A program made the position numbers and the translations under genes. From Phytoamicus setariae (lineage in GTDB: Bacteria > Pseudomonadota > Alphaproteobacteria > Rhizobiales > Rhizobiaceae), in NCBI RefSeq assembly GCF_016722925.1, contig NZ_JAEQNC010000008.1, positions 1 through 64,000 on the forward strand: a DNA stretch of 64,000 nucleotides, given 5' to 3'. The notes under the pieces were generated by a model. It did no database searches and was not told the DNA's origin. It saw only the letters and a list, made by a program, of their open reading frames with translations. Of this stretch, positions 16,921 through 64,000 are shown one piece after another (the stretch's first letter is position 1; each line of letters opens with the position of its first letter).

Positions 16921-16930
16921 TTATCTATAA
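16921..16930. promoter_or_regulatory. BioR box before bioR
   Basis: TTATCTATAA is an exact match to the published BioR operator consensus and lies 3 bases before the bioR ATG. It occupies the place where a ribosome site would be, so bound BioR would block its own expression. Confidence 0.88.
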
Positions 16931-16933
16931 AAT

Positions 16934-17602: not shown

Positions 17603-17751
17603 GTCTCGGCTCAACCCATTGATTTCCCCCAGGAGTATACCACTTCAGGGGCATCGGCCGGATCCCCTTTGCGACTCTAATCTCCTTCTGGTTGTCTGAC
17701 TCGTCGTTCATTCGCGGAATGGGCGGTTGCCAGTTTGTGTCCTTTGCAAAA

Positions 17752-17761
17752 TTATAGATAA
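17752..17761. promoter_or_regulatory. BioR box before bioB, with a weaker adjacent copy
   Basis: TTATAGATAA is the exact reverse complement of the BioR consensus, 39 bases before the chosen bioB ATG (17801). A degenerate copy, CTATCTATTA (17771-17780, 8 of 10 matches), follows ten bases later and covers an alternative ATG at 17780. Confidence 0.88.
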
Positions 17762-17800
17762 AAATTGATTCTATCTATTATGAAGCAAGGGCGAGATCGC

Positions 17801-48473: not shown

Positions 48474-49652
48474 ATGAACGTGACAAGGCCAGTTTCAGAG
48501 CGATTACTGAGTTTTGCCGACACAATCCTGGAACAGGGCGGCGAAATTTCAAGCAAGCTCGATATGCTGCGATTCGAAAAATTTCCTCCGAACGCACAGA
48601 AGACGCTGCGTCAATTCTCACTTGGAGAAGTAGCTGAGTTTGTGGGAGTCTCCCAGAGCTATTTGAAAAAGCTCCACCTTCAAGGCAAAGGCGTTGAGCC
48701 GACCGTGACCTCGACGGGTCGGCGCTATTACACCGCTGATCAGATGAACGAGCTGCGGTCGCTTCTCGATCGTGTACCGCACAGAAAATCCGGGGAAAAG
48801 CTCCAGGTCATTGCCGTCGTGAACTTCAAGGGCGGCTCGGGCAAGACAACGACTTCGGCTCATCTTGCTCAGCATCTGGCGCTGAAAGGCTACCGTGTTT
48901 TGGCAGTCGATCTCGACCCGCAGGCATCAATGACTGCCCTGTATGGCATTCAGCCTGAACTGGATGAAAAGCCCTCGTTTTATGAAACCCTTCGGTATGA
49001 CGGCGAACGCAAGTCGATTTTGGAGATCATACAGCCGACGAACTTTCCGAACCTCGATATAATCCCCGCCAATCTGGAGTTGCAGGAATATGAGTATGAA
49101 ACTCCGCTCGCAATGCAGCGTAAAGACTCGACCGAGGGTAAGCTATTCTACACAAGGATCGGCGCGGCGCTGACCGAGGTCGATGACCGCTACGACGTTG
49201 TGGTAGTGGATTGCCCTCCCCAGCTTGGCTATCTGACGTTGACGGCCCTTACTGCGGCAACGTCCGTCCTCATTACCGTTCATCCGCAGATGCTGGACAT
49301 CATGTCGATGTCTCAGTTCCTGTTAATGCTGGGCGATATCCTCAAGAGTATCGAATCCGCAGGCGTTACCGTGAGCCTCGATTGGTTCCGATACCTGGTT
49401 ACGCGCTATGAGCCGATGGATATTCCACAGCAGCAGATGGTCGGCTTCATGCAATCCATGTTTGCCCGGCAGATGATGAAGAACCATATGGTGAAATCAA
49501 CGGCTGTTTCGGATGCCGGTCTGACGAAGCAGACGCTCTACGAAGTGGAGCGCTCGCAATTTACTCCGGCCACCTATGATCGCGCGCGTGAGGCGATGGA
49601 CCTTGTTAATTCTGAGGTTATCGAGTTGGTGCGCCAGGCTTGGGGGCGATAA
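48474..49652 (+). CDS. repA: RepA, ParA-type plasmid partition ATPase and repABC autorepressor
   Basis: The 392-residue protein has an N-terminal HTH region (FSLGEVAEFVGVSQSYLKKLHLQGKG), a deviant Walker A motif (VVNFKGGSGKTTTSAHLAQHLA), Walker A-prime (VDLDPQASMTAL) and Walker B (VVVDCPPQLGYLTLTALTAA). It is the standard first gene of repABC and drives partition with RepB and represses the operon. Confidence 0.96.
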   Translation: MNVTRPVSERLLSFADTILEQGGEISSKLDMLRFEKFPPNAQKTLRQFSLGEVAEFVGVSQSYLKKLHLQGKGVEPTVTSTGRRYYTADQMNELRSLLDRVPHRKSGEKLQVIAVVNFKGGSGKTTTSAHLAQHLALKGYRVLAVDLDPQASMTALYGIQPELDEKPSFYETLRYDGERKSILEIIQPTNFPNLDIIPANLELQEYEYETPLAMQRKDSTEGKLFYTRIGAALTEVDDRYDVVVVDCPPQLGYLTLTALTAATSVLITVHPQMLDIMSMSQFLLMLGDILKSIESAGVTVSLDWFRYLVTRYEPMDIPQQQMVGFMQSMFARQMMKNHMVKSTAVSDAGLTKQTLYEVERSQFTPATYDRAREAMDLVNSEVIELVRQAWGR

Positions 49653-49735
49653 CATGCAGGGAAAATTGTCAGCCGTACATATCGCGTTTTATTGTAACGT
49701 TTTCACTATGTTAAGCGAGAATTGGGGTGGATTGA

Positions 49736-50722
49736 ATGGCTCGTAAGGATGTCTTCCTCAACATAACCAGTGGAGACAGTGCTAGGCCTGAAAGGAAGGC
49801 CACGCCTGGATATGCAAGCCGAGGCGCCTCCCGATCGATGATCAGTTCGCTCGGAGAACTCGCAGAGAAAGCTGCAAAGGCAGAGCAGATCCTGCAAGGT
49901 GAAGCAATCGTCGAGCTGGATCCGAAGGAGATCGACGCTTCGTTTGTTTCCGATCGTCTGGACGACGATGAATTGGCATTCAACGAACTTGTCGAGGCTA
50001 TCCGAGAGCGCGGCCAGGATACGCCGATTCTGGTCCGCCCCCATCCAACTGACGAAGGCCGCTATCAGATCGTTTTTGGTCATCGACGCGTGCGGGCCGC
50101 AAGAATTCTCGGGCGACCCGTTCGAGCAGTTGTGAAAGCGATCGCTGACGTTGATCATGTGATTGCCCAAGGGCAGGAAAACTCGGCGCGCGAGAACTTG
50201 TCGTTCATCGAACGGGCCATGTTTGCTCAGCAGTTGCTGGAGCTCGGCTACGAGCGGCGGACTATTGAGCTGGCGCTGTCGATTGATCCGCCGATGCTTA
50301 CGAGGATGCTGTCCGTCGCGGGCAGGATTCCGACTGAAATCTCGACCGCGATCGGAGCAGCAAAAGGGGTCGGACGTGATAGATGGCTTGAGCTGGTTCA
50401 GTTGCTTGAACAGCCCGGCAACATGGTGTTGATGCGAACGCTCGTGTCTAACGGGGGCTTCGCCCAGGCATCTTCCGACCAACGCTTCGAGCAGGTGTTC
50501 ACCGAACTCAAGAAGGCGAGGAAACCCGCAAAGCGGACCGCTGTGGCGACGGCATGGCAGCCAAACGATGGCGCCCTGACCGCAGAGTTCAAGAACACCG
50601 GCAAGAGCTTCTCGCTTTCCCTGAAGGCGAAGAATGCCGGAAAATTTGGAAAATTTCTCACAGAGAATCTGGATCGCCTCTACGAGGAGTTCCAGACGAG
50701 AGAGAGAGTGCAAGGAGACTGA
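49736..50722 (+). CDS. repB: RepB, ParB-type partition protein
   Basis: The 328-residue protein has the rhizobial RepB N-terminus (ARKDVFLNIT ... SRGASRSMISSLGELAEKA), a ParB nuclease-like domain (ELVEAIRERGQDTPILVRPHPTDEGRYQIVFGHRRVRAARILGRPVRAVVKAI, then QENSARENLSFIERAMFAQQLLELG) and a C-terminal dimerisation region. GGGGTGGA lies before the ATG. It binds parS sites; none matching the usual consensus was spotted nearby. Confidence 0.96.
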   Translation: MARKDVFLNITSGDSARPERKATPGYASRGASRSMISSLGELAEKAAKAEQILQGEAIVELDPKEIDASFVSDRLDDDELAFNELVEAIRERGQDTPILVRPHPTDEGRYQIVFGHRRVRAARILGRPVRAVVKAIADVDHVIAQGQENSARENLSFIERAMFAQQLLELGYERRTIELALSIDPPMLTRMLSVAGRIPTEISTAIGAAKGVGRDRWLELVQLLEQPGNMVLMRTLVSNGGFAQASSDQRFEQVFTELKKARKPAKRTAVATAWQPNDGALTAEFKNTGKSFSLSLKAKNAGKFGKFLTENLDRLYEEFQTRERVQGD

Positions 50723-50733
50723 GAGCCGCAAAA

Positions 50734-50786
50734 GAAAAAAGCCCCCGAACGTCACCGTCGCGGAAGCTTTCCTCATAGTCTAAGCA
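50734..50786 (-). ncRNA. Antisense counter-transcribed RNA (incA/ctRNA) of repABC
   Basis: On the reverse strand a promoter TTGACA (50820-50815), 17-base spacer, GATTCT (50797-50792) precedes a short transcript ending in a hairpin (GCTTCCG at 50767-50761 with CGGGGGC at 50747-50741, with G-U pairs) and a U-rich run (50740-50730). This is the position and layout of the repB-repC antisense RNA that limits RepC synthesis and sets copy number and incompatibility. Ends are approximate. Confidence 0.85.
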
Positions 50787-50791
50787 GCTTG

Positions 50792-50820
50792 AGAATCGCA
50801 TTTCCACGAATCGCTGTCAA
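50792..50820 (-). promoter_or_regulatory. Promoter of the repABC antisense RNA
   Basis: Reverse-strand TTGACA (50820-50815) and GATTCT (50797-50792) are separated by 17 bases, a near-consensus sigma-70 promoter. Confidence 0.85.
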
Positions 50821-50878
50821 GAGTCTTTGGCGTCGTTTTGGCGGGCGGATTTCTTTTGCCTTTTGAAAGGTGAAGAAG

Positions 50879-52198
50879 ATGCAGACTGGAAATGTGACGA
50901 CGCCTTTTGGGCGGCGGCCGATGTCGCTTGCCATGTTGGCAAATCAGACCAAGGCTGGAAATATCGACGTGGCGAAAGCCACCGACAAGTGGCGGCTGTA
51001 TCGTGCGCTCTGCGAGGCACGGCTACGGCTGGGCGTGACCGATCGGGCCATGGCGCTGCTGAATGCGCTTTTGAGTTTTTATCCGCACACCGAGCTTTCG
51101 GTGGAGAACGGCCTGATCGTTTTTCCATCCAACGCCCAGCTGTCTCTGCGCGCCCACGGGATGGCCGAACAGACGATCCGCCGGCATCTCGCCGGGCTGA
51201 TCGACGCCGGGCTGTTGACGCGCAAGGACAGTGCCAACGGCAAGCGCTATGCACGCCGGGATGGGGCAGGGGATGTCAACGAGGCTTTCGGGTTCTCGCT
51301 GGCACCGCTTCTGGCGCGTGCCGAAGAAATCGAGGCGATCGCCAGCCAGGTCGTGGCGGAACGCGTCGAATTCCAGCGGCTCAAAGAGCGACTGACGATC
51401 TGCCGTCGCGATGTGTCCAAACTGATCATGACCGCGCTAGATGAACAGGCGCCGGGTGACTGGCAGGCGATGCATCTGCATTTTCGCGCGCTGGTCGATG
51501 CGCTCCCCCGGTCTCCGTCGATGCATCAGGTTGCCGAAACCCTCGACGAGATGGAACTGTTGCGCGAAGAAGTGGTCAACAGATTGGAAATGCAGATCAA
51601 ATCAGAAAATCATAGCGTCAATCCCCTCCAGAATGAGCGGCACATACAGAATTCAAAACCCGAGTCCATATCTGAACTTGAACCTCGCTTCGACACGAAG
51701 CTGGGGCGCGATCAGCATGTCAAAACCACCGACGCGCCTGAAGCACCTGACGTAATTGTAAATGAATACCCTGGAGGGGAGGGGAGATCGGATCCGGAAC
51801 CTATGCGTCGCAGATGGCGTGAGCCGCAGGACGGGGCTGCCGCGGCGGCGGGGCGGTCGTTCCCACTGGGCATGGTGCTTCAGGCCTGCCCAGATATTGC
51901 CATGTATGCTCCCGGCGGGGCGATCGACGGCTGGCGCGATCTGATGGGCGCTGCGGTCGTGGTACGCTCCATGCTCGGGGTCAGCCCGAGTGCTTACCAG
52001 GAGGCCTGCGAGGTGCTGGGCGCCGAAAATGCGGCAACGGTGATGGCCTGCATTCTCGAAAGGGCAGGGCACATCAATTCGGCCGGCGGTTATCTCAGGA
52101 CGCTGACGGAGCGGGCGCGGAAAGGAGAATTCGGGCTTGGACCGATGCTGATGGCTTCGCTCAAGGCAAATGGCGGCAACGCGCGGAAGGCGGGGTAG
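50879..52198 (+). CDS. repC: RepC, replication initiator of a repABC replicon
   Basis: The 439-residue protein begins MQTGNVTTPFGRRPMSLAMLANQ, as in typical RepC, with the winged-helix segment YPHTELSVENGLIVFPSNAQLSLRAHGMAEQTIRRHLAGLIDAGLLTRKDSANGKRYARR. ATG 50879 has AAAGG 8 bases upstream; GTG 50870 is also in frame. In repABC replicons the origin lies within repC. The 260-330 region is a variable linker (ESISELEPRFDTKLGRD) as usual. Confidence 0.96.
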   Translation: MQTGNVTTPFGRRPMSLAMLANQTKAGNIDVAKATDKWRLYRALCEARLRLGVTDRAMALLNALLSFYPHTELSVENGLIVFPSNAQLSLRAHGMAEQTIRRHLAGLIDAGLLTRKDSANGKRYARRDGAGDVNEAFGFSLAPLLARAEEIEAIASQVVAERVEFQRLKERLTICRRDVSKLIMTALDEQAPGDWQAMHLHFRALVDALPRSPSMHQVAETLDEMELLREEVVNRLEMQIKSENHSVNPLQNERHIQNSKPESISELEPRFDTKLGRDQHVKTTDAPEAPDVIVNEYPGGEGRSDPEPMRRRWREPQDGAAAAAGRSFPLGMVLQACPDIAMYAPGGAIDGWRDLMGAAVVVRSMLGVSPSAYQEACEVLGAENAATVMACILERAGHINSAGGYLRTLTERARKGEFGLGPMLMASLKANGGNARKAG

Positions 52199-52626: not shown

Positions 52627-53772
52627 TCAAGGCAACAAGCGCGCGGCGCGCCCGGTTCGCCGCGTCGCATTGTTGTAGTAGCTGGACGCCTGCTGCACGG
52701 AGCGATGCCGTGACTGTTCCATCGCCTCGGGAAGCGGGACGCCGCGGTTGGCAGCTTCTGTGAGGTAACCGGATCGCAATCCGTGGGCGGAAAACTCCCC
52801 AGCATCCAGCCCGGCCATCGCCACACGCTGCTTGACAATGTCATTGACCGCCTTTGGGTCCAGCGCCCGGCGGGACACATTGCCCCAGCGATCGATCGAT
52901 CGAAACACGCTGCCGCTGTCGATCTTCGACGCCGCCAGCCAAGCGTTTAGGGCGTCGACCGGCCGGCCGGTCAGATAGACGACCTCGTCGTGTTCGGCCC
53001 CACTGGTTTTGGTGCGGCCGAGATGGATCGAAAGAGAGGGCAGGGGAGCGCCACCATCGACAGTGACCGGTGCTTCGATCGTCAACTGCTCTTTGCGCAG
53101 ACCAGCGATTTCGCTCCGCCGGCGGCCGCCCGAGGCAAAGCCGACCATCAGGATGGCCCGATCGCGGAGATCACGAAGGTTATCGCCCGCACAGGTGGCA
53201 AGCAGTTTTGCCAGAACATCGCCGGTCACGGCCTTGGCACTCCTGCGGCGACGTTGGCGTGGTGTCGCGCGGACAGCGAGACGGATCGCCGATTTGAGGG
53301 CGGGGGAGGCGAAAGCGCCTTCGAGACCGCGCCACTTCGTCAGCGTCGACCAGCTGGCGAGCCGCCTGCGCACCGTATCTGGCGCGTGCGGGCCGAATGA
53401 TCTCAAGAAACCGTCTTCACGGAGCGTCTGGTCGATCCCGGATGGCATGCCATGATCAGGATCTGTCTCGCGCCGACGAGGATCCCACAAGTGGTGGGCC
53501 ACGAACTTAAGCAGCAGCGCTTCTGGCGCCGGCCAGGGGAGGGGGGCGCCAATTGCGGCGAGCGACCAGGCTTCCAGGTAGGCGAGGTCCGAGGTCAACG
53601 CCCGCAGCGTGTTTTCGCCCATGCCTTCGTTAACCAGATGGCGCAGCGTCTCGACATCCTGGTCGGTGAGCAGTTCGGCGAGCTTGTCGCGCCGGTCGAT
53701 CGGCAGTACGGCGGCGATCGTGTCGAGGGTCTCAGCCCGAGCCGAAATGTTTGAAGAGCGATCAGTCTCCAT
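52627..53772 (-). CDS. Tyrosine recombinase/integrase
   Basis: The 381-residue protein has a SAM-like N-terminal domain (LPIDRRDKLAELLTDQDVETLRHLVNEGMGENTLRALTSDLAYLEAW) and catalytic residues of phage-type integrases: Arg in GFASGGRRRSEIAGL, HxxR in FSAHGLRSGYLTEA, His in EQSRHRSVQQ and Tyr in SSYYNNATRR. Its ATG (53772) overlaps the vapC stop region by 11 bases, so it may be co-translated with the toxin-antitoxin pair. It may resolve replicon dimers or mark an integrated element; no attachment site was found. Confidence 0.9.
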   Translation of the reverse strand: METDRSSNISARAETLDTIAAVLPIDRRDKLAELLTDQDVETLRHLVNEGMGENTLRALTSDLAYLEAWSLAAIGAPLPWPAPEALLLKFVAHHLWDPRRRETDPDHGMPSGIDQTLREDGFLRSFGPHAPDTVRRRLASWSTLTKWRGLEGAFASPALKSAIRLAVRATPRQRRRRSAKAVTGDVLAKLLATCAGDNLRDLRDRAILMVGFASGGRRRSEIAGLRKEQLTIEAPVTVDGGAPLPSLSIHLGRTKTSGAEHDEVVYLTGRPVDALNAWLAASKIDSGSVFRSIDRWGNVSRRALDPKAVNDIVKQRVAMAGLDAGEFSAHGLRSGYLTEAANRGVPLPEAMEQSRHRSVQQASSYYNNATRRTGRAARLLP

Positions 53773-54178
53773 GGGCAAAAGGCCCCAGTATAGCGACACC
53801 TTCTTTGCGGGCCGCAGCCGCCAGCTTTCTGTCGAGGGTTGCCAGGGGTGCGGTGCGGTTGGTAGCCAGAGCCAGATAGGCTGCGTCGTAGGCGCTCAGC
53901 GCATGATTGGCCGCCAGAAGAAGGATTGCGCCGTCGCTGCCACTGCCTGCGTCGTCAAGCGGCAGGCGCCTGACCCGCTCCATGCCGAGCAGCGCGCTTC
54001 CGGCAGCGATCCGGCCACGCCGCTCGGCCATCGCCAAAATATTGCGGACTTCGAACCAGAAGAGGGATGGGACAGGGCAGGGTTCTGGTATCGACGCGAT
54101 CACCGCCTCGGCGGCTTGGCTATATTCCTCCGGCAACAGCCATGCCGCTACCATGGACGCATCGATGATGAATGCCAT
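53762..54178 (-). CDS. vapC: VapC-like PIN-domain ribonuclease toxin
   Basis: The 138-residue protein is a PIN domain with the acidic set D6 (MAFIIDASM), E43 (LFWFEVRNILAMAERRG), D98 (HALSAYDAAYLALA) and D116 (LATLDRKLA). VapC toxins cut tRNA or rRNA when free of antitoxin. Its ATG overlaps the antitoxin stop (TAATG). Downstream of repABC it probably stabilises the replicon. Confidence 0.92.
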   Translation of the reverse strand: MAFIIDASMVAAWLLPEEYSQAAEAVIASIPEPCPVPSLFWFEVRNILAMAERRGRIAAGSALLGMERVRRLPLDDAGSGSDGAILLLAANHALSAYDAAYLALATNRTAPLATLDRKLAAAARKEGVAILGPFAHGD

Positions 54179-54417
54179 TACCGACGACCTTCGCCCCGCC
54201 AGGACATCAGTTCGTCATGGGAGGAAAGCAGCGCTTTATCGCGGGCCACGCGAACCTCGTTCACAAGCAGTTGCAGATCCGTCTCCTTGCGGATGCGCGA
54301 GAGACGGGCAATGGGATCGTTGCCTCGCGCGATGATCACGTCTTCGCCGGCCTCGACGCGGGCCAACAACTCGGACAGATGGGTTTTGGCTTCGGACACC
54401 TTGACGGTGGTGGTCAT
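54178..54417 (-). CDS. vapB: Antitoxin of the Phd/YefM (VapB-like) type
   Basis: The 79-residue protein has MTTTVKVSEAKTHLSELLARVEAGEDVIIARGNDPIARLSRI, the Phd/YefM DNA-binding fold, and a toxin-binding C-terminus (ETDLQLLVNEVRVARDKALLSSHDELMSWRGEGRR). It neutralises the PIN toxin encoded next and represses the pair. Confidence 0.92.
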   Translation of the reverse strand: MTTTVKVSEAKTHLSELLARVEAGEDVIIARGNDPIARLSRIRKETDLQLLVNEVRVARDKALLSSHDELMSWRGEGRR

Positions 54418-54803: not shown

Positions 54804-56423
54804 TCATGTCTGATTTTTTAATCGAAAGCGCTGGATCTTGCCTGACTCGGTTTTTGGTAGCTCCTCGGCGAAGACGATTGAGCGGGGATATTTGTAGGGT
54901 GCGATCATCGCTTTGACGTGATCCTGTAGGTGTTTGACCAGGTCTGGGTCGGCCGTGGCACCGGCCGCGAGCACTACATAGGCTTTGACGATTTCGCCGC
55001 GCGCGTGGTCGGGCGCGCCGATGACGGCACATTCTTGTACTGCCGGGTGAAGCAACAACGCCGCTTCTACTTCCGGACCCGCAATGTTGTATCCTGCAGA
55101 CAGGATGATGTCGTCAGATCGGGCGGCGAAATGGAAGAATCCATCTTCGCTCTGGATGAAGGAATCGCCGGTCAGGTTCCAGCCGTCGCGCGCATAGTCT
55201 TTCTGTCTGATATCATCGAGATAGCGGCATCCGACCGGCCCCCGCACCGCCAATTGTCCTATCGTGCCCCGCGGCACCTCGCGCATGTGTTCATCGACCA
55301 CTCTCGCCTGGTATCCCGACAGCGGCCGGCCTGTGCAGCCGGGCTTTTGCTCGCCGAGCCGATTGGAAATGAAGATGTGGAGCATTTCGGTGGAGCCGAT
55401 GCCGTCGATGATCGGCCGTCCGGTCGTACGCATCCAGTCCTCGAAGACAGGACCGGGTAGCGTCTCGCCCGCCGAGACTGCGACGCGCAGCGACGACAGG
55501 TCGGCGCCCTCGCCGTGTGCAGCAATCATCGCCCGATAGGCGGTCGGTGCGGTAAAGCATATGGTTGCCTGGTATTTCTGGATGATCTCGATGAGGTTCG
55601 GCGGCGTGGCATTCTCGATCAGAACGGCGCTGGCGCCGAAACGTAAGGGGAAGACCGCAAGCCCACCGAGTCCGAACGTAAAGGCGAGCGGCGGCGAGCC
55701 TACGAAGACATCGTCTGTCGTCACTTCAAGCACCTCGCGCGCATAGGCGTCGGCAATGATGAGGATGTCGCGATGGAAATGCATCGTGGCTTTCGGCACG
55801 CCGGTTGAGCCGGACGTGAAGCCCAGGAGTGCGACATCGTCGCGGCCTGTTTTCACGGCGTCGAACTTGACTGGCTTGTCGAGTGCGGCGCGGTCGAGCT
55901 CGGCATCATGATTGGCCGTACCGTCGAAGCCGACCACCGTCCTGAGAAAATGGCTGTCCTTGGCACAGGCCTGCAAGTCGTCCAGTAGCCTGGTGTCGCA
56001 TAGCGCGAGGGTAATCTCGGCCTTGTCCACGATCTTTGCCAGTTCGCCGGCACGCAGCATCGGCATGGTGTTGACCACCACGGCGCCCGCTTTCGTAGCT
56101 GCCAGCCAGCAGGCCACCATTGCCGGATTGTTGGCGGAACGGATCAGCACTCGGTTGCCAGGTTCGAGCCCGAAGTTTTCCACGAGCGCATGCGCGAGCC
56201 GATTGGTCCAGTCGGTCAATTCCTTGTAGGTGCGTTTGCGCCCATTGCCGATGAGCGCAATACGATCGCCAAAACCCCGCTCTACCATCCGGTCGGTCAG
56301 TTCCACTGCGGCGTTGAGCCATTCGGGATAGTTGAAGGTACCAAGATCTATGTCCGGCCATAGTGAAAACGGCGGCAGGTTGTCGCGCGCGAAGCTATCC
56401 GAATGTCCCGTCGGTCCGAGCAT
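54804..56423 (-). CDS. 2-aminobenzoate (anthranilate)-CoA ligase-like enzyme, benzoate-CoA ligase family
   Basis: The 539-residue ANL ligase has the benzoate-type N-terminus HSDSFARDNLPP, the P-loop ALLGFTSGSTGVPKATMHFHRD (about 199-217), GIGSTEMLHIFISNRLGEQKPGCTG, and a C-terminal SGKIQRFRLK with the catalytic lysine. It activates an aromatic acid to its CoA ester. Kynureninase, encoded nearby on the opposite strand, makes anthranilate, so anthranilate is the likely substrate. ATG 56423 has AGGG 8 bases upstream; ATG 56429 is also in frame. It lies 14 bases after the hydrolase gene. Confidence 0.88.
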   Translation of the reverse strand: MLGPTGHSDSFARDNLPPFSLWPDIDLGTFNYPEWLNAAVELTDRMVERGFGDRIALIGNGRKRTYKELTDWTNRLAHALVENFGLEPGNRVLIRSANNPAMVACWLAATKAGAVVVNTMPMLRAGELAKIVDKAEITLALCDTRLLDDLQACAKDSHFLRTVVGFDGTANHDAELDRAALDKPVKFDAVKTGRDDVALLGFTSGSTGVPKATMHFHRDILIIADAYAREVLEVTTDDVFVGSPPLAFTFGLGGLAVFPLRFGASAVLIENATPPNLIEIIQKYQATICFTAPTAYRAMIAAHGEGADLSSLRVAVSAGETLPGPVFEDWMRTTGRPIIDGIGSTEMLHIFISNRLGEQKPGCTGRPLSGYQARVVDEHMREVPRGTIGQLAVRGPVGCRYLDDIRQKDYARDGWNLTGDSFIQSEDGFFHFAARSDDIILSAGYNIAGPEVEAALLLHPAVQECAVIGAPDHARGEIVKAYVVLAAGATADPDLVKHLQDHVKAMIAPYKYPRSIVFAEELPKTESGKIQRFRLKNQT

Positions 56424-56437
56424 GTGCATATCCCTTG

Positions 56438-57505
56438 TTAGCCAGCAGAAGCATTCTCTGCCGCGAAGCAGAGCAGCCTTGCCGGGTTGTCGACCATCAA
56501 ATTGGTGAGCCTGTCCTGTCCGATCCCGGCGGCGCGGAACCGCGGCGCGAGGCTGTCAAGGATATGGGCGAGCCCGTGACCGCCCCAGTTGCGCTTTCCG
56601 GTCTGGTAGCAGACGTCCTGGGAAATCAGCAGTTGCCCGATGTGGCCGCGCTCGATCAGCGTCGCCAGTTCGGCGATCCGCTGGGTGTCGGTGGGCAACT
56701 GGATATAGGCTTCGCCGAAGGCAAAGACACCTTCCGAACCGAACGTATCATATTCGAGCCAGAGTCCCCGGGCGAGCAGCCGCTCCTGATAGGCGAGGTC
56801 GTCGCCGGAACCGTCCTGGTGGCAGAGAACGAGCTTGTCGATCTCGCCGCCCTCCTCAAGGTAGATGGCGATCAACTCGTCGGTGAGCGGGCGGAACGAC
56901 GGCAGGATGCCGGACATAACGTGGAGGAAACAGGGCGCCGATGTGCGCGACTGGGCACGGGCGGCGGCGCGCAGGCATTTCAACTCGAGGTCCGTGGCGG
57001 TCTCGATGGCTATCTCGCCGATCGCGCCGCGTCGGATACCTTCACGCCCGCCGCGCATGATGTCATCGACCAGATGCTGTGCAAGCTCCTCGGTGCTGGC
57101 CTCTCGAACCCAATCCGGCAGGGATGCGTCGATGTAAAGCCCAGTGGCTGCGATGACGTTTACCCCGCTGCGATCGGCCACTTCCTTGAGGCCACTGGCA
57201 TCGGCGCCCAAACCGACACCAGTGAGATCGACGATGGTGCGCCCGCCGGACTTCTTGAACCAAAGTGCCTCTGCAGCAGACTGGTCGAGATCCGTGCCCT
57301 CCAGATTGACCTTGTATCCGGCCGGTGTCCTGAGCAGGCGCCAGCGATCCGCCAGCGCCGGCTGTTGTGCGGACAGCTCGCCTTCATCGGCTGCGGCGAC
57401 ATAGCGGCAGCTGAAGTCGATCAGCAGATGTTCGTGCGGAAGGGTAATGCCCATCTCCGCAGGTCGGATCAATCCGTTCACGGTGATCGCGCATTTTCCA
57501 CACAT
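56438..57505 (-). CDS. Phosphotriesterase-family metal hydrolase (lactonase/amidase-like)
   Basis: The 355-residue TIM-barrel protein has GITLPHEHLLIDF (HxH metal ligands), VDLTGVGLGADASGLKEVADRSGVNVIAATGLYIDASLPDWV, GEIAIETA (bridging acid Glu in place of carbamylated Lys), FLHVMSGI, LVLCHQDGSGDD and QLLISQDVCYQTGKRNWGGHGLAHIL (metal Asp). ATG 57505 follows GGAGG by 6 bases; the open frame runs further upstream through the promoter. Known relatives include lactonases, esterases and amide hydrolases. Its place beside the CoA ligase suggests that it releases an aromatic acid from a conjugate or lactone. Confidence 0.82.
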   Translation of the reverse strand: MCGKCAITVNGLIRPAEMGITLPHEHLLIDFSCRYVAAADEGELSAQQPALADRWRLLRTPAGYKVNLEGTDLDQSAAEALWFKKSGGRTIVDLTGVGLGADASGLKEVADRSGVNVIAATGLYIDASLPDWVREASTEELAQHLVDDIMRGGREGIRRGAIGEIAIETATDLELKCLRAAARAQSRTSAPCFLHVMSGILPSFRPLTDELIAIYLEEGGEIDKLVLCHQDGSGDDLAYQERLLARGLWLEYDTFGSEGVFAFGEAYIQLPTDTQRIAELATLIERGHIGQLLISQDVCYQTGKRNWGGHGLAHILDSLAPRFRAAGIGQDRLTNLMVDNPARLLCFAAENASAG

Positions 57506-57551
57506 GGCAGGCCTCCACCGACGACAATCTGAACTTGCCGCTTGATTATAT

Positions 57552-57568
57552 ATAATGTACTGCATTAT
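57552..57568. promoter_or_regulatory. Palindromic operator in the divergent promoter of the kynureninase island
   Basis: ATAATG (57552-57557) and CATTAT (57563-57568) are perfect inverted arms with a 5-base spacer, centred between the divergent hydrolase (57505) and kynureninase (57629) starts. An overlapping ATTATATATAAT palindrome lies just left. The regulator gene is not in the window. Confidence 0.65.
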
Positions 57569-57628
57569 GCATAGTGCGAAAGCAGACGCAATGGCGATAT
57601 GCAAATGGACGAGTGCAAAGGAGCAGTA

Positions 57629-58861
57629 ATGCGAATGACGAGGGCCGACGTTCAGGCACTGGACAGGGAAGATCTTTTCGCGCCGTTGCGCAACGCGTTC
57701 GAAATACCCGAAGGCGTCATCTATCTCGATGGCAACTCGCTGGGGCCGATGCAGGGCGCCACCCGGCGGCATGTCGCAGATGTGGTCTCGCAACAGTGGG
57801 GGGAAGGCCTGATCCGCAGCTGGAACACGCATGATTGGATCGACCTGCCGACCAAGATCGCGGGAAAAATCGAAGGGTTGATCGGTGTGCCCAAGGGGAC
57901 AGTCGCGGTCTGCGATTCCACATCGATCAATCTTTTCAAGGTTCTTGCCGCGGCCCTTCACGCTCGGCCATCACGGCGTGTTATCCTCTCCGAGCGCAAC
58001 AACTTCCCGACCGACCTGCATATTGCACAGGGCCTGATCGATTTGCTGGCGGACGGCTACGAGCTGAGGACCGTGGCTACCGACGAGCTGGCGGATGCAA
58101 TCAACGACGAGGTTGCCGTAGTTTTGCTGACGGAGGTCAATTATCGCACCGGTCGGCGTCTGGATATGGCAGAATTGACACGTCTGGCCCATGCCGGCGG
58201 GGCTCTCACGATCTGGGACCTCGCACACAGCGCGGGCGCCTTCAAGGTCGAACTTGCCGCGGCCAACGTCGATTTTGCTGTCGGCTGCGGCTACAAGTTC
58301 CTGAATGGCGGCCCCGGCGCTCCGGCCTTTGCCTATGTGGCGCCCCAACATATCAAGGATCTTCGGCAACCAATCACCGGCTGGTTCGGTCATGCGACGC
58401 CGTTCAACTTTGTCGACGACTATGCGCCGGCCCCCTCGATCGAGCGGATGCGGGTAGGCACGCCGCCGATTCTGTCGTTGGCAGCGCTGGATTCGGCACT
58501 CGATATTTTCGACGGCGTCGACATGCTTGCCTTGCGCGCCAAGGCTGATCGGCTGTTCGAGATTTTTTCGTCGGTCGTGGTGCCGGAATGCCCGGAACTC
58601 GAACTGGTAACGCCGCTCGCTCCCAATCAACGTGGCAGCCAGATCGCCTTCCGCTTCGAGGAAGCTTACGCGGGAGTGCAGGCACTGATCGCCCAAAACG
58701 TCATCGGCGATTTTCGTACCCCCGACATCATGCGCTTCGGTTTGACGCCGCTTTATCTCAGCCATGAGGATGTCTGGCAGGCAGCCCACGTGCTGGTGAA
58801 GGTGATGCGGGACAGGCTTTGGGACCAGCCGGCCTACAGGGTCAGGGCAAAAGTCGTTTGA
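57629..58861 (+). CDS. kynU: Kynureninase
   Basis: Kynureninase is a PLP enzyme splitting L-kynurenine into anthranilate and L-alanine. The 410-residue protein has IYLDGNSLGPMQGATRR, DSTSINLFKVLAAAL, SERNNFPTDLHIAQG, TEVNYRTGRRLDM, IWDLAHSAGAFKVEL (D197, H200) and the PLP lysine in CGYKFLNGGPGAPAF (K223), then WFGHATPF and RMRVGTPPILSLAAL. ATG 57629 has GGAG 5 bases upstream; earlier in-frame ATGs lack it. It heads a plus-strand run with two SDR genes. No tryptophan dioxygenase or typical kynurenine formamidase is in the window. Confidence 0.93.
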   Translation: MRMTRADVQALDREDLFAPLRNAFEIPEGVIYLDGNSLGPMQGATRRHVADVVSQQWGEGLIRSWNTHDWIDLPTKIAGKIEGLIGVPKGTVAVCDSTSINLFKVLAAALHARPSRRVILSERNNFPTDLHIAQGLIDLLADGYELRTVATDELADAINDEVAVVLLTEVNYRTGRRLDMAELTRLAHAGGALTIWDLAHSAGAFKVELAAANVDFAVGCGYKFLNGGPGAPAFAYVAPQHIKDLRQPITGWFGHATPFNFVDDYAPAPSIERMRVGTPPILSLAALDSALDIFDGVDMLALRAKADRLFEIFSSVVVPECPELELVTPLAPNQRGSQIAFRFEEAYAGVQALIAQNVIGDFRTPDIMRFGLTPLYLSHEDVWQAAHVLVKVMRDRLWDQPAYRVRAKVV

Positions 58862-58876
58862 ATGGGAGTGACAACG

Positions 58877-59683
58877 ATGACAACAACCGAAGAAGCTGAC
58901 GATCGCACATCCGAAACTACCCGCATGCTGGCCTGGGAGCTTCGCCGGTTCGAGGGTCGAACCGCCTTTGTAACCGGTGGCGCCTCGGGAATCGGCCGCG
59001 CTACTGCACTGCGTCTCGCTGCGGAGGGTGCAAGCGTCTGGATCGTCGACCGCAACGCTCCGCCTGCAGATGATGCCGTGCTTCAGGTCGCCCGTTACCT
59101 GCCGCTTGATGTATCCGACGAAGCGATGGTGGCCAGCACGATCGACAATGTCATCGCAACCGATGGGCGGCTCGATGTGGTGGTCAACGCCGCCGGCATC
59201 GCCATTGCCGGCACCACCCAGGAGACGTTGGTTGCCGACTGGAACAAGACCGTTCTGGTTAACCTCAATGGTACGTTCCACGTCACGGCGGCGGCAATGC
59301 GGGCCATGCGGGGTCACGGTGGTTCGGTGGTCAACATCGCCTCCGACGCCGGTCTCGTCGGCCAGCACGGGCAGGCGGCCTATTGCGCGAGCAAGGGCGG
59401 GGTCGTGCAGTTCACCCGCGCCGCGGCGTTGGACGGTGCAGCCGATGCGATCCGGGTCAACTGCGTCTGCCCTTGTTTTGTGGAAACTCGGCTGGTCCAG
59501 GACTGGATCGCCGCGCAGCCGGATCCGGCAGCGGCACGGGCGGCGGCGGAGGCAGACCAGCCGATCGGGCGCATGGGCAAGCCCTACGAAATAGCTGCGG
59601 CCGTGGCATTCCTCGCCTCGGACGAAGCCAACTTCATCACCGGCATCGCGCTCGCCGTCGATGGCGGCACGACGGCGCGATAG
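58877..59683 (+). CDS. Short-chain dehydrogenase/reductase 1 of the kynureninase island
   Basis: The 268-residue classical SDR has the cofactor motif FVTGGASGIGRATAL (about 31-45), VVNAAGIAIAGT, a Ser in VVNIASDAGLVG, the catalytic YxxxK in YCASKGG and VNCVCPCFVETRLV. It oxidises or reduces a hydroxyl or keto group with NAD(P). GGGAG lies 8 bases before ATG 58877; its mRNA start overlaps the kynU end. Substrate is not readable from sequence. Confidence 0.9.
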   Translation: MTTTEEADDRTSETTRMLAWELRRFEGRTAFVTGGASGIGRATALRLAAEGASVWIVDRNAPPADDAVLQVARYLPLDVSDEAMVASTIDNVIATDGRLDVVVNAAGIAIAGTTQETLVADWNKTVLVNLNGTFHVTAAAMRAMRGHGGSVVNIASDAGLVGQHGQAAYCASKGGVVQFTRAAALDGAADAIRVNCVCPCFVETRLVQDWIAAQPDPAAARAAAEADQPIGRMGKPYEIAAAVAFLASDEANFITGIALAVDGGTTAR

Positions 59684-59699
59684 AACGGAGAAGACGAAA

Positions 59700-60458
59700 A
59701 TGGCCAGACGTCTGCAAAATAGAACAGCCTTCGTGACCGGCGCCGGCCGCGGCATCGGACAGGCAATCGCCGAAAGACTGGCGCAGGAAGGCGCCTTCAT
59801 CATCTGTGCCGACATCGACGGAAGCGCCGCGGCGGCCGTCGCGGCAAGCCTGCCGAATGGCGGAGTGGGGATCAAGGTGGACGTCGCCGACGAGCAGTCC
59901 GTCGAGGCCGCGATGGCCGAGGCGGTTGCTCGTCGCGGCGGCCTCGACATCCTCGTCAACAATGCCGGCATTGCCGGGCCGCAAGAGCCGGCAGGCACGA
60001 CCACGCTCGATGGCTGGCGCCAAACCATAGAGGTCAACCTCACCGGACCGTTCCTTTGCTCGCGGGCGGCACTGCCACATCTCGACAAGAGCGGCGGGGC
60101 GATTGTCAACATCGCCTCGGCACTGGCGCTGGTGGGCTGGACGAACGAATGCGCCTATGGACCAACCAAGGCCGGCGTGGTGCAGCTTACGAAGGGGATG
60201 GCGCTGGATTATGCAGGCCGGATTCGCGTCAATTGCGTCTGCCCCGGCGCGGTGCGGACGCCGATGATCGTCTCAGTGCTGCCAGACAATTCGGATCTCG
60301 AGCCGACGCTGGCTGAGTATGGCAAAATCCACCCCCTGCACCAGCGTCTTGCCAAGCCGCGCGAGATCGCCGACGCCGTTCTCTTCCTGGCATCTGATGA
60401 TGCGTCGCTGATAACCGGCGCCGTACTGGCAGTCGACGCAGGTTTTACGGCCGGTTAA
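59700..60458 (+). CDS. Short-chain dehydrogenase/reductase 2 of the kynureninase island
   Basis: The 252-residue classical SDR has FVTGAGRGIGQAIAERL, ILVNNAGIAGPQEPAG, VNIASALALVGW, YxxxK as YGPTKAG and VNCVCPGAVRTPMI. GGAG precedes ATG 59700 by 9 bases. It is closely related in layout to the SDR upstream and lies 16 bases after it. The two may act on successive steps or different stereoisomers of one intermediate. Confidence 0.9.
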   Translation: MARRLQNRTAFVTGAGRGIGQAIAERLAQEGAFIICADIDGSAAAAVAASLPNGGVGIKVDVADEQSVEAAMAEAVARRGGLDILVNNAGIAGPQEPAGTTTLDGWRQTIEVNLTGPFLCSRAALPHLDKSGGAIVNIASALALVGWTNECAYGPTKAGVVQLTKGMALDYAGRIRVNCVCPGAVRTPMIVSVLPDNSDLEPTLAEYGKIHPLHQRLAKPREIADAVLFLASDDASLITGAVLAVDAGFTAG

Positions 60459-60517
60459 AGCCGCTGCGCATGGAAACTGTTCATACAGCCCTGCCCAGTC
60501 CGGCTTCAACGTCAACA

Positions 60518-60548
60518 AAATGGCCTTTGCAAAGCGCAAAGGCCATTT
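60518..60548. terminator. Bidirectional terminator hairpin
   Basis: AAATGGCCTTTG (60518-60529) and CAAAGGCCATTT (60537-60548) form a perfect 12-base stem with a 7-base loop, between the convergent SDR and hydrolase genes. Confidence 0.75.
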
Positions 60549-60660
60549 CAGTGCGAAGTGGAGCACATTGTTGATAAAGCCCGGAAGGCTTCCAGCGACA
60601 TCAGCGCCATGGACGCATCACCCCAATGCCAAGACTACTTCGCAGCCCTTGGCTTCAAAT

Positions 60661-61455
60661 CTAGGTTCGGCTTCGACGCTTGTAGATGCGGTCGAGAAAG
60701 CCGAGAATTGCATAGTTTACAACCTCGGCGTTTTCGAGGTTCGAGGTGTGTCCGGATTTGGGCACTTTGACCAGCGTGGCATCCGGCAGCTTTTCCAGCA
60801 TGGAGTAGGCGCGCTCGATGGGAACCGGCATGTCGCCCGCGGCATGGATGATCAGCACCGGCTTGTCGATCTCGCGCAGGCGTTCTGTCAAGTCGGGCTT
60901 ATGCACCCAGGATGCGCCTTGCGCCCAGACGGCGCGGGACGGGATTTTTGTCGTCCAGTGATCGATCCAGTGGTCAACCAGGCCGGGATTGTTGGCATAG
61001 GTATATTCGCCGAAGCAGAATGGCGCGGCCCATTCCGCACGTTCGCGGGATACCATTCCGTCGACGTTGAACTTCTCGAATTCGGCGTCAAAGGCGATCT
61101 GCGCATCCTCGGGATAGGCACAAGCCTGGCCCTCGATAATGATGAAGCCATCGGCGCGATCCAGATATTTCAGCCCAAAATCCACAGCCATGAACGCGCC
61201 GGTCGACATGCCCGCGACGACGTAGCTGGAAAGGCCGAGCTTTTCACCGAGGGCCGCCGTATCGTCGGCGAGATCAACCAGCGTGTGCGGCGTCGCCTTT
61301 CCGAGCAGCACGCGGCTGTTCTGGGAGATCGCCCGGTAGCCGTTGGCGGCAAGGAAGGCGAGCTGCGGATCGAACATCGTGTAGTCCATCAGCGTGCCGT
61401 GATTGAAAATCACCGCCGGGCCGGCACCACTTTCCTTGTATTGTTCTGACGTCAT
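60661..61455 (-). CDS. Alpha/beta hydrolase
   Basis: The 264-residue protein has the oxyanion-hole HG motif (VIFNHGTLMDYTMFDPQLAFLAANGYRAISQNSRVL), the nucleophile elbow AGMSTGAFMAVDFGLKYLDRADG (Ser in GMSTG), an acid in IIHAAGDMPVPIERAY and the C-terminal catalytic His in SGHTSNLENAEVVNYAILGFL. Its ATG overlaps the permease stop (ATGA at 61452-61455), so it is coupled to the importer. It may hydrolyse a CoA thioester, ring-opened lactone or formyl-amide intermediate; a formylkynurenine deformylase role is possible but not supported by specific motifs. Confidence 0.85.
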   Translation of the reverse strand: MTSEQYKESGAGPAVIFNHGTLMDYTMFDPQLAFLAANGYRAISQNSRVLLGKATPHTLVDLADDTAALGEKLGLSSYVVAGMSTGAFMAVDFGLKYLDRADGFIIIEGQACAYPEDAQIAFDAEFEKFNVDGMVSRERAEWAAPFCFGEYTYANNPGLVDHWIDHWTTKIPSRAVWAQGASWVHKPDLTERLREIDKPVLIIHAAGDMPVPIERAYSMLEKLPDATLVKVPKSGHTSNLENAEVVNYAILGFLDRIYKRRSRT

Positions 61456-62525
61456 CGGCTTTCGTCTCCCTGCTTCTTGCCGTCCAGTCGCGATGCCGGT
61501 TTTCCGAGCATCAGTTCGAGCGCCCCGAGCAAACCGCCGGGCCGCAGATAGAGCGTCAGCACCAACACCACGCCCAGAGTCAGCTGCGAGGTGCCAAGCG
61601 GCACCGAAAACCCCAGGCCGCCACTTTCCAACCCACGCATGAGCTGTTCCCAGAACGTCAGCAGGATGGTGCCGACGATAGCGCCGGCCACACTGTTGAG
61701 GCCGCCCAATACCGCCATGACCATCATCGGGATGACCAGTGCGGTGTAGAAAGATTTGGGCGAGAACGCGGTGAGGAAAAACGCCATCAGCGCGCCGCCG
61801 CAGCCCATGACGAAGGCGGACAGCACCCACGGCCATAGTCGCGCGGTCACGAGATTGATGCCGGCCGTCTCTGCCGCAAGCGCATCTTCGCGCACCGCCC
61901 GCGCACGTAAGCCTGGCCGGGAGAACTTGAACGCTGCTGCGAGCGCCGCCACCAGGATCACCGCTGTGTACACGCTCCAGAAATCGGCAAGCTTCGGCAC
62001 GCCGAAAAAGGTCTGGTTGCCGCGCGTCAGGGCGTCGGCATTGCGCAGGAGCTCGTTCATGATCACCAAAAAGCCGAACGTCATGATGCCCGCGGCGGCG
62101 CCGGCAAGCCGCATGACGATCGGTCCGATGAGCAGCGCCACGAGTGCCGCCGCCAACCCTCCGAGCAGGATGGCCGGAACCATTCCCAGCTGCGCGGTAG
62201 CCAGAAAGGCCGGTAGATGCGGCAGCGTAGCGGCCTTCATGCCGGCAGGCACCGAGACGAGCCCGGCTGCATAGGCACCGACCGCGACGAAACCGGGATG
62301 TCCGAATGAAACAATGCCAGTGCTGCCGGCGAATATCTGGTAGCCCATGGTCAGCACGATCGAGATGCCGAGGCTGACGATAAGCGCGCTGTACTGACCA
62401 GCGGTTACGATATCCAATACCGCGAGCAGCCCGACAAAGACCCCGGAAAGCAGAACCGCGCCGCCGACTGCGGCGCCATAGCCGGTGCGACCAAGCGGCT
62501 TGTCAATTGACAGGAACGGCATCAT
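61452..62525 (-). CDS. Branched-chain amino acid-type ABC permease LivM
   Basis: The 357-residue membrane protein shows the LivM pattern: ALIVSLGISIVLTMGYQIFAGSTGIVSFGHPGFVAVGAYAAGL, IMTFGFLVIMNELLRNADALTRGNQTFFGVP, RAVREDALAAETAGINLVTARLWPWVLSAFVMGCGGALMAFF and GGLNSVAGAIVGTILL. It forms the channel with LivH. Proteins of this family import amino acids and also aromatic acids. Confidence 0.93.
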   Translation of the reverse strand: MMPFLSIDKPLGRTGYGAAVGGAVLLSGVFVGLLAVLDIVTAGQYSALIVSLGISIVLTMGYQIFAGSTGIVSFGHPGFVAVGAYAAGLVSVPAGMKAATLPHLPAFLATAQLGMVPAILLGGLAAALVALLIGPIVMRLAGAAAGIMTFGFLVIMNELLRNADALTRGNQTFFGVPKLADFWSVYTAVILVAALAAAFKFSRPGLRARAVREDALAAETAGINLVTARLWPWVLSAFVMGCGGALMAFFLTAFSPKSFYTALVIPMMVMAVLGGLNSVAGAIVGTILLTFWEQLMRGLESGGLGFSVPLGTSQLTLGVVLVLTLYLRPGGLLGALELMLGKPASRLDGKKQGDESR

Positions 62526-63406
62526 TTCGACACCTCCAGCGTCTTGCCGGCTATGCCCTGTGGGCGCAGAAGCAGAATGAGAATAACCAGCACGAAGGCC
62601 AGCGTCTGTTGGTAGTTGATCAGCGGCGCATCGAGCGTTGCGGACAGAACGCTTTCGAGCATGCCGAGCGCAAGCCCGCCGATGACGGCGCCGCGCACGG
62701 TCCCTAGACCGCCGAGCACGACGGCGATGAACGCCTTCAGCGTCGGGTTGAAGTCTGCGCGTGGCGTCACAGTACCCGTTTGCGCGAACCAGACGAACGC
62801 CACAATCGCTGCGATGAAGCCGCTGAGCGCGAATACCAGCATCAGCACCCGGGAGGAGCGCACTGCCATCAATCGCGCAGTGGCCGCATCCTCGGCGGCG
62901 GCGCGGATCTCGATGCCGTAGCGGGTCTTGTGGATCAGGAAATCAAGTCCGATCAGCACGGCCGCCCCGAGAGCCAAGGCCACCAGTTGGAGGACAGAGA
63001 CGCGCACGATACCGAGGTCGAGCGAGGTGATCAGCGCCGATGGCGTTGGCACGACGCGGGGACCCTCGCCGAACACCATGACGGCGAGCGCCTGCAGCGC
63101 CATCGCGACACCGAACGAAGCGAGCAGCAACGTCGCGCCTGGCGCGCCGACAAACGGCAGGAAGGCGATCCGGCCCACCGCCATCGACAGCAGCATCGCA
63201 AACACAACCGAACCTGCAAGGCTGATTGGGTAGGGCAGACCCATCGCGTCAAGCAGGTAGAGCGCATAGCCCGACCAGACGATCAGGCCGCCATAGGCGA
63301 AATTGATAAGCCCCATGACGCTGAAGACCAGACTCAGCCCTAGCGCAAGCAGTACATAGAGTGTCCCGCTGCTGAGGCCGTCGACAAACATTTGCAAGAG
63401 GTTCAT
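62522..63406 (-). CDS. Branched-chain amino acid-type ABC permease LivH
   Basis: The 294-residue membrane protein has LFVDGLSSGTLYVLLALGLSLVFSVMGLINFAYGG, the coupling region IRAAAEDAATARLMAVRSSRVLMLVFALSGFIAAI and VLGGLGTVRGAVIGGLALGMLES. It overlaps LivM and LivF genes by four bases. Confidence 0.93.
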   Translation of the reverse strand: MNLLQMFVDGLSSGTLYVLLALGLSLVFSVMGLINFAYGGLIVWSGYALYLLDAMGLPYPISLAGSVVFAMLLSMAVGRIAFLPFVGAPGATLLLASFGVAMALQALAVMVFGEGPRVVPTPSALITSLDLGIVRVSVLQLVALALGAAVLIGLDFLIHKTRYGIEIRAAAEDAATARLMAVRSSRVLMLVFALSGFIAAIVAFVWFAQTGTVTPRADFNPTLKAFIAVVLGGLGTVRGAVIGGLALGMLESVLSATLDAPLINYQQTLAFVLVILILLLRPQGIAGKTLEVSK

Positions 63407-64000
63407 GCAGTTTCCACTCCGAGATAGGCCGAAGCAAGGTTGCCCGATTGCCGAAGTTTTTCGGCACTGTCGCGGCGAACGATGCAGCCGTTGCGCATGA
63501 CGATCGCATCGTCGGCGAGCGCCAGCGGCCGTCCCGCCGCTTCCTCGACGACGATGATCGTCAGCCCCTGCTTTTTGAGCAGGTGGAGCGTCGCATAGAC
63601 ATCGTCGGCCATTTTTGGTGACAGGCCTAGCGAAGGCTCGTCGAGCAAAAGGAGCTTCGGTCGGGCCATAAGCGCGCGGGCAATTGCCAGCATCTGTTGC
63701 TGGCCGCCGGACAGCGCGCCGCCAGAATTTTGCCGACGCTCCTTGAGGATGGGAAAAATCGAGTAGGCGCGCTCAAGGCCGTCCTTGACTGCCCCGGCGA
63801 AGCTTCGGCCGAGCTGGCCGCGCAACGGCGTTGCGCCGAGCATCAGATTTTCCTCGATCGACAGTGATGAGAAGATGCGCCGTCCTTCGGGGCAGAGGAT
63901 AAGTCCGCGCTCGCTGCGTGCTTCGGCCGAAAGCCGTGTGATGTCCGTGCCTTCGTAGAGCACTTGCCCATCCCACAGCGGGACCGAACCGCACATCGCC
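63403..64000 (-). CDS. Branched-chain amino acid-type ABC ATPase LivF (N-terminus beyond the window)
   Basis: The visible 199 codons cover LYEGTDITRLSAEARSERGLILCPEGRRIFSSLSIEENLMLGA, the signature LSGGQQQMLAIARALMARPKLLLLDEPSLGLSPKMADDVYATL and VEEAAGRPLALADDAIVMRNGCIVRRDSAEKLRQ, all typical of LivF. The Walker A region lies beyond base 64000. The operon probably continues with livG and a binding protein outside the window. Confidence 0.92.
   Translation of the reverse strand, partial: AMCGSVPLWDGQVLYEGTDITRLSAEARSERGLILCPEGRRIFSSLSIEENLMLGATPLRGQLGRSFAGAVKDGLERAYSIFPILKERRQNSGGALSGGQQQMLAIARALMARPKLLLLDEPSLGLSPKMADDVYATLHLLKKQGLTIIVVEEAAGRPLALADDAIVMRNGCIVRRDSAEKLRQSGNLASAYLGVETA

Follow-up and report, generated by a model that had tools for sequence, protein, structure and literature searches.

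The gene cluster considered here lies at 54804-64000 of a 64,000-nucleotide stretch of the Phytoamicus setariae genome (the window, i.e., positions 1 to 64000 of contig NZ_JAEQNC010000008.1, here C36; the genome comprises 5.6 Mb in 37 contigs) and is predicted to encode the breakdown of kynurenine via anthranilate and its coenzyme A (CoA) ester. Two described systems resemble it in part. The abm pathway of Azoarcus evansii likewise employs a ligase, then a monooxygenase/reductase, and then beta-oxidation-type steps, but it starts from anthranilate, and the available portion of its description mentions no linkage of a kynureninase with a phosphotriesterase-family hydrolase (PTE) and short-chain dehydrogenases/reductases (SDRs) (PMC4539516). 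In the quinaldine pathway of Arthrobacter sp. Rue61a, likewise, the upper part leading to anthranilate and an anthranilate-CoA ligase are both encoded on a plasmid, and paralogues of the lower-pathway genes lie elsewhere; however, that upper part attacks a quinoline, and kynureninase goes unmentioned in the main text (PMC3534580). Genes of the abm type beside kyn genes have been given, in the excerpt available, as predicted pathways (PMC8879955).

In public genomes, kynureninase genes (kynU) and CoA-route genes occur together. Plasmid pMET1 of Aminobacter NyZ550 has, within about 25 kb, a ligase, kynA, an importer, kynU, a GntR regulator and a ring-attack operon; Thalassospira marina pCSC3H3 has its ring-attack and ligase genes, kynU and kynA side by side; Marinovum algicola pMaD4 has a similar arrangement; and Ensifer adhaerens p-2 has kynU, GntR and a ring-attack operon, with no ligase in the stretch examined. 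The Aminobacter and Ensifer GntR regulators are about 50% identical to that of the present genome. Thus, a kynureninase joined to the CoA route is a known kind of arrangement, and the initial annotation of the window, which had called the gene set unrecognised, was too strong as regards the lower half, because Aminobacter, Thalassospira and Marinovum already combine a kynureninase gene with ligase and ring-attack genes in one place. The present genome differs from these four in having its ring-attack operon on another contig. The first three stretches have kynA; none of the four holds a relative of the PTE, and no SDR in them exceeds 40% identity to those described below. The other half is the module formed by the PTE, two SDRs (SDR1 and SDR2), an alpha/beta hydrolase and an importer: the association of PTE, SDR1, SDR2 and importer with an exchangeable kynureninase is rare, conserved and real. 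It is somewhat probable that the whole constitutes a plasmid-borne peripheral pathway which imports and unmasks a kynurenine derivative and feeds it into the CoA route.

Kynureninase, ligase and ring attack

All of the cluster genes named in the initial annotation are intact open reading frames (ORFs) close to their predicted places and match the predicted families, as judged from the ORF list and family models. The features are as follows, the last three lying past the end of the window.

54804-56429, minus strand: anthranilate (2-aminobenzoate)-CoA ligase, 541 amino acids (aa), AMP-binding family
56438-57505, minus strand: PTE-family metallohydrolase, 355 aa, PF02126; 8 bases upstream of the ligase gene, same direction
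57545-57556, no strand: exact palindrome ATTATATATAAT, candidate GntR operator, in the divergent gap between PTE and kynU
57629-58861, plus strand: kynureninase, 410 aa, TIGR01814; start at 57629 or 57635
58877-59683, plus strand: SDR1, SDR family; alternative start at 58862
59700-60458, plus strand: SDR2, SDR family
60661-61455, minus strand: alpha/beta hydrolase, PF00561; 4-base overlap with livM
61452-62525, minus strand: LivM-type permease, PF02653
62522-63406, minus strand: LivH-type permease, PF02653
63403-64000, minus strand: LivF-type ATPase, part in the window; full gene at about C36:63403-64134
C36:64121-64894: livG
C36:64891-66051: periplasmic binding protein
C36:66248-66988, plus strand: GntR/FCD regulator, divergent from the importer operon

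The kynureninase, the single match found in a search of the host genome, scores 304 bits against TIGR01814 (cut-off 246.4) over residues 9-393 of 410. Its best solved match is 1qz9 (423 bits), which we take to be the Pseudomonas kynureninase. The columns presumed to represent the active site, i.e., the lysine that holds pyridoxal phosphate (PLP) and the substrate pocket, are the Trp, the FPxD Asp, the DLxHxAG Asp, YK, GW, GT and Arg columns; these are kept in all 16 kynureninases compared, including the PLP lysine, and are similar in 1qz9. By homology, the window enzyme is predicted to cleave L-kynurenine.

The ligase is 77.7% identical to the ligase of an Aminobacter kynU/kynA/liv cluster and 76.4% to that of a Paracoccus anthranilate-CoA operon; the corresponding values are 77.9% for Aminobacter NyZ550, 75.7% for Thalassospira and 73% over the part available for Marinovum. 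Its best solved match is the anthranilate-CoA ligase 4wv3, and against TIGR02262 (benzoate/2-aminobenzoate-CoA ligase) it scores 371 bits, 4 bits below the cut-off of 375.25.

The DNA past position 64000, where the initial annotation had proposed to look for a ring-attack enzyme, livG and a binding protein, holds the latter two and the GntR gene; of the seven matches that the ring-attack enzyme gave in the host genome, none is on C36. An enzyme of this kind, which that annotation had expected somewhere in the genome, is encoded on contig C34: the one full-length match (C34:90472-92748) is 56% identical to the Paracoccus query and scores 1354 bits (cut-off 1078) against NF006101, a bifunctional salicylyl-CoA 5-hydroxylase/oxidoreductase, which is the label also carried by the ring-attack enzymes in the Paracoccus, Thalassospira and Aminobacter records. 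By homology, the C34 enzyme is predicted to be of the 2-aminobenzoyl-CoA monooxygenase/reductase type. Its operon (C34:84791-92760) encodes in addition an SDR, an enoyl-CoA hydratase, an acyl-CoA dehydrogenase, a thioesterase, RidA and a 3-hydroxyacyl-CoA dehydrogenase, and contains no ligase gene. The monooxygenase is 76% identical to the Ensifer one, which lies at most about 5 kb from a kynureninase and from a GntR regulator 51% identical to that of the present genome. A division of labour, with the plasmid supplying kynureninase and ligase and the other contig supplying ring attack, fits these data.

The route from kynurenine to anthranilate and 2-aminobenzoyl-CoA, as first proposed from the window, is therefore well supported by the 76-78% identity of the ligase, its match to 4wv3 and the C34 enzyme, i.e., by homology and gene context. 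The absence of tryptophan dioxygenase (TDO) and anthranilate dioxygenase, also noted there, holds for the ORFs of the cluster. Elsewhere the genome encodes one divergent TDO-family protein and four ring-hydroxylating alpha subunits (PF00848), none of which comes near the cut-offs for anthranilate dioxygenase (AntA/AndAc).

Recurrence of the module

A collection of named genomes was scanned with the PTE, a scan that detects close relatives only, and gave two loci: L019, in a metagenome-assembled genome (MAG) of an actinomycete, and L020, in Sphingomonas sp. Y57. A profile search at E 1e-80 found no further genome, the host apart, among 394 genomes of its family or 385 of its class, and one more genome, G953 (locus L048), among 397 genomes of the family of L020. 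The four genomes with the PTE, i.e., the host, the actinomycete MAG and two members of one Sphingomonas-centred family, are assigned to two phyla. In all four loci, the PTE gene has kynU, both SDR genes, an importer and an alpha/beta hydrolase gene as neighbours at distances of up to about 10 kb, in rearranged order; in L020 and G953, a TonB receptor and an MFS protein take the place of the ABC importer of the window. Identity to the window proteins in L019, L020 and G953, respectively, is 73-74%, 63-64% and 50% for the PTE, 53%, 59% and 56% for SDR1, and 59%, 72% and 72% for SDR2, the orthologous clade of which has support of 99/100. For the five subunits of the importer, identity to the L019 proteins is 48-54% (livM 48%, livH 54%), against about 24-41% for those of the kynureninase or anthranilate loci L004, L005, L006 and L008.

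None of 14 other loci (L004-L008 and L037-L045, which are kynureninase clusters and one anthranilate operon) holds a PTE relative at E 1e-8, and their best SDR matches are at most 40% identical to SDR1 or SDR2. In plasmid searches, the best among the matches listed were 34% for the PTE, 44-45% for SDR1, 47% for SDR2 and 32% for the binding protein. Among the titles and opening lines of abstracts in the open-access literature, none was found that describes a PTE/SDR module beside a kynureninase; nor was any found on dihydrokynurenine, or joining kynureninase with phosphotriesterase and anthranilate or with 2-aminobenzoyl-CoA.

The kynureninases of the module behave otherwise. The window enzyme is 43%, 54% and 53% identical to those of L019, L020 and G953, and in a tree of 17 rows the module kynureninases form no clade. 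A topology that forces four (or three) of them together is weakly rejected (p-AU 0.040 and 0.042), and the L019 branch is long. Since there is no module clade and joint grouping is weakly rejected, generic kynureninases appear, with caution, to have been exchanged between modules. A specialised kynureninase substrate had been considered and was dropped for want of such a clade.

Could the neighbours of the kynureninase be mere passengers? In ordinary catabolism, plain kynurenine would be imported or derived from tryptophan; the remaining enzymes (PTE, SDRs and hydrolase) would be passengers or have unrelated functions. Several kynU clusters with a ligase, ring-attack genes or a Liv importer do exist, and contig C32 encodes the TDO-family protein. 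However, PTE, SDR1 and SDR2 are kept with a kynureninase in four of four genomes assigned to two phyla despite differing gene order; the C32 protein (246 aa) reaches 131 bits where 391 are required, with 26% identity to the TDO of L005 and 34% over part of that of L007; and the sole cyclase-family (PF04199) protein of the genome matched no NCBIfam model at E 1e-10. Ordinary catabolism is on these grounds unlikely. An origin of the substrate from tryptophan was likewise judged unlikely, because the only TDO-family protein found is divergent and far below the curated cut-off.

The SDRs bear on a further alternative, in which the module SDRs and hydrolases would act downstream, on ring-opened intermediates of the CoA pathway. 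Ring-attack operons do include SDRs, and some of the closer relatives in the SDR comparison, at up to about 40% identity, are of this kind. Yet these operons, including those of C34 and of the L020 genome, have an SDR and a hydratase of their own, and the tree of SDR sequences places those of the module apart from those of the operons, although the separating forks have support of only 82/96 and 89/91. Such a downstream role seems quite improbable.

The alpha/beta hydrolase gene overlaps livM by 4 bases. Beyond PF00561, the protein has weak PcaD/esterase-like matches. It has no match among the hydrolases of the kyn/abm clusters L004, L005 and L007 (E 1e-5) and L037 and L040 (E 1e-3). A role as kynurenine formamidase was rejected for this lack of homology to the hydrolases of the five clusters, which were assumed to be formamidases.

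Two of the other kynU clusters have neighbours of note. The Shinella cluster (L006) has a related GntR, SDRs, a thiamine pyrophosphate (TPP) enzyme and hydantoinases; the Sulfitobacter cluster (L008) has a related GntR, an SDR, an amidase and an annotated lactonase (N-acyl homoserine lactonase family, metallo-beta-lactamase superfamily). No TDO is annotated in either stretch, and possibly both represent other kynurenine-yielding pathways. The L008 SDR is only 28-29% identical to the module SDRs; with its kynU, SDR, lactonase and related regulator, L008 is a possible independent parallel of the module.

The PTE and the proposed pathway

The PTE scores 186 bits against PF02126 (cut-off 22.4) and reaches no curated cut-off for a lactonase or amidase subfamily. 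Its six predicted metal ligands (H24, H26, E164, H195, H229 and D297), placed by alignment to PTER, are kept in all four orthologues; H195, H229 and D297 follow the usual ligand pattern of the family. Against solved structures, the PTE profile gives 219 bits for 3k2g, 177 for 9efa (a PTE-related protein and, to go by its name, presumably PTER itself), 171 for 3rhg, 141 for the parathion hydrolase 4rdy and 124 for 1bf6. An AlphaFold model from three sequences had a mean pLDDT of 56.

With the PTER/3k2g-like branch, the PTE shares the fold family by sequence, the metal ligands and a Glu where PTER has E169; it differs in gene context and in the substrate-contact residues. This raises the alternative that the PTE works as an N-acyl amidase, as mammalian PTER does, and would release kynurenine or anthranilate from an N-formylated or N-acetylated form, the SDRs acting on the acyl or side-chain part. 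The profile is indeed closer to 3k2g, 9efa and 3rhg than to 4rdy or 1bf6, and PTER hydrolyses N-acetyltaurine, according to the available part of the report (PMC11374699). However, in our own alignment the PTER contact positions R204, R233 and H300 correspond to S198, G232 and C299 of the PTE (C299 being Leu in G953), so that recognition of the same head group is not to be expected. The amidase reading is possible, if on balance doubtful.

In G953, the PTE, a diverged copy (L048:10956-12134), has a twin-arginine-like N-terminal signal, of which the other three orthologues show none; this signal suggests an early, extracytoplasmic step for that enzyme. A second TonB receptor gene adjoins the PTE gene of G953; nearby, genes for an aminotransferase, a TPP enzyme and a protein resembling aldehyde dehydrogenases were noticed by eye.

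The glycine motif, YxxxK and, after strand 2, an Asp are present in both SDRs. Such an Asp usually means that the cofactor is NAD, which favours the direction of oxidation. Paired, stereo-complementary SDRs act on benzylic alcohols in the degradation of lignin dimers and of ephedrine.

The proposed peripheral pathway would run as follows. The branched-chain-amino-acid-type ABC importer would take up a kynurenine derivative, from which the PTE, with a binuclear metal centre, would remove a mask (a lactone, ester or acyl-amide); in G953, the PTE with its export-type signal would act before uptake. The two NAD-dependent SDRs would then oxidise an alcohol, most simply at the carbon that becomes the ketone of kynurenine. 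Kynureninase would split kynurenine into anthranilate and alanine, the ligase would make 2-aminobenzoyl-CoA, and the C34-encoded monooxygenase/reductase with its beta-oxidation-type enzymes would break the ring, the GntR regulator acting on both divergent transcripts through ATTATATATAAT-like sites. Homology and context support the predicted kynureninase, ligase, ring attack, importer class and regulator family; we infer the masked-kynurenine cargo, the order of steps and the role of each hydrolase and SDR. The chain of unmasking, oxidation of an alcohol to a ketone and cleavage by kynureninase is chemically coherent. The module itself, the fact that it recurs next to kynureninases in four genomes, and the one export-type PTE signal point to an external conjugate, for which a gamma-hydroxy/lactone kynurenine or an N-acyl kynurenine fits. 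The lactone/hydroxy substrate is our own proposal. In its most specific form, the PTE would open a gamma-lactone (or ester or amide) of 4-(2-aminophenyl)homoserine, the SDRs, each perhaps specific for one stereoisomer, would convert the benzylic alcohol into the ketone and so give kynurenine, and the exchangeable kynureninase would release anthranilate; perhaps this is so, although we regard so exact a version as a tentative and rather unlikely one.

Several points weigh against the proposed peripheral pathway. PTE-family and SDR enzymes are too broad in function to fix reaction or substrate. The alpha/beta hydrolase of the window is 25.6% identical to that of L020 and has no match to that of L019; with so little relatedness across modules, its orthology is unsure. 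L019 comes from a MAG, so its assignment to a genome may be wrong. In Sphingomonas Y57 (genome G002), benzoate-1,2-dioxygenase-type genes and a BenD-like SDR gene (L051:5655-9444) lie about 5 kb from the L020 module, and the dioxygenase scores higher on benzoate than on anthranilate models; benzoate could thus be the product there. The divergent TDO-family gene leaves endogenous kynurenine as a possible source. The monooxygenase/reductase is found in 232 of 394 genomes of the host's family, including the host and all 7 genomes of the same genus; being so common, its presence in the host genome and in those of L019 and L020 is weak evidence of linkage, and its use as proof of linkage was dropped after this control. 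As regards regulation, no ATTATATATAAT match with at most two mismatches occurs at the C34 ring-attack operon, and L040 has no ATTATATATAAT site despite a GntR relative (38% identical) beside its kynU.

Very improbable is a biosynthetic cluster with a kynureninase and an anthranilate-activating enzyme. Antimycin clusters can hold both, as stated in the part of the source available (PMC5883857), but no ORF resembling a nonribosomal peptide synthetase or polyketide synthase was seen by eye in the C36 cluster and its flanks, and the genome has both an importer and an operon for ring degradation.

By itself, the lower pathway goes little beyond what public genomes already contain; the new part is the module of PTE, two SDRs, hydrolase and importer. 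If the proposed peripheral pathway is correct, it would be a new entry into the kynurenine/anthranilate-CoA network, would point to an environmental kynurenine-type compound eaten by distant bacteria, and would assign roles to orphan PTE-family proteins as well as to two SDR subfamilies.

Regulator, replicon and neighbouring genes

The palindrome predicted in the gap between PTE and kynU is there as an exact ATTATATATAAT, and matches with one and two mismatches lie in the gap between the GntR and binding-protein genes past the window. GntR relatives 44-52% identical adjoin kynU in five loci (L005, L006, L008, L044 and L045), and each of the five has ATTATATATAAT matches (at most two mismatches) within about 130 bases of the GntR gene; no site was found in L039, the GntR of which is 22% identical. 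The motif is not unique to the locus, since the window contains five matches at up to two mismatches against 0.21 expected. Three of the four others are located around a biotin operon and a different GntR gene. ATTATATATAAT resembles other FCD-GntR boxes and is putatively the site of the GntR of the cluster. The GntR regulator probably controls both divergent transcripts through these candidate sites.

In the gap before the C34 ring-attack operon (L016:10740-10970), GTTTAAAGTA occurs twice and may be the operator of a different regulator. In the window, at 16920-22836, a GntR-like gene (16934-17602) has TTATCTATAA-like boxes at 16920, 17751 and 17885 and is followed by ORFs resembling bioB, bioF, bioD, bioA and a FabH-like gene. 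These genes probably form a biotin operon under the control of BioR.

Genes for repA, repB and repC, all scoring above the curated cut-offs, lie within 48474-52198, upstream of the cluster; thus, the replicon is probably a repABC plasmid. Between repABC and the cluster, two further features were noticed by eye: an ORF resembling integrases (52627-53772) and a pair of the PIN-toxin/antitoxin type (53762-54417). On a Palleronia plasmid (L038), kynU likewise directly follows repABC and a toxin-antitoxin pair. Past the window, at C36:78884-87004 (L002:4884-13004), is an operon, also noticed by eye, resembling those of soluble di-iron monooxygenases, with a reductase, an amidohydrolase, a coupling protein and its own GroEL; it is flanked on both sides by genes for enhancer-binding regulators and contains the nearest oxygenase genes noticed on C36 past the window.

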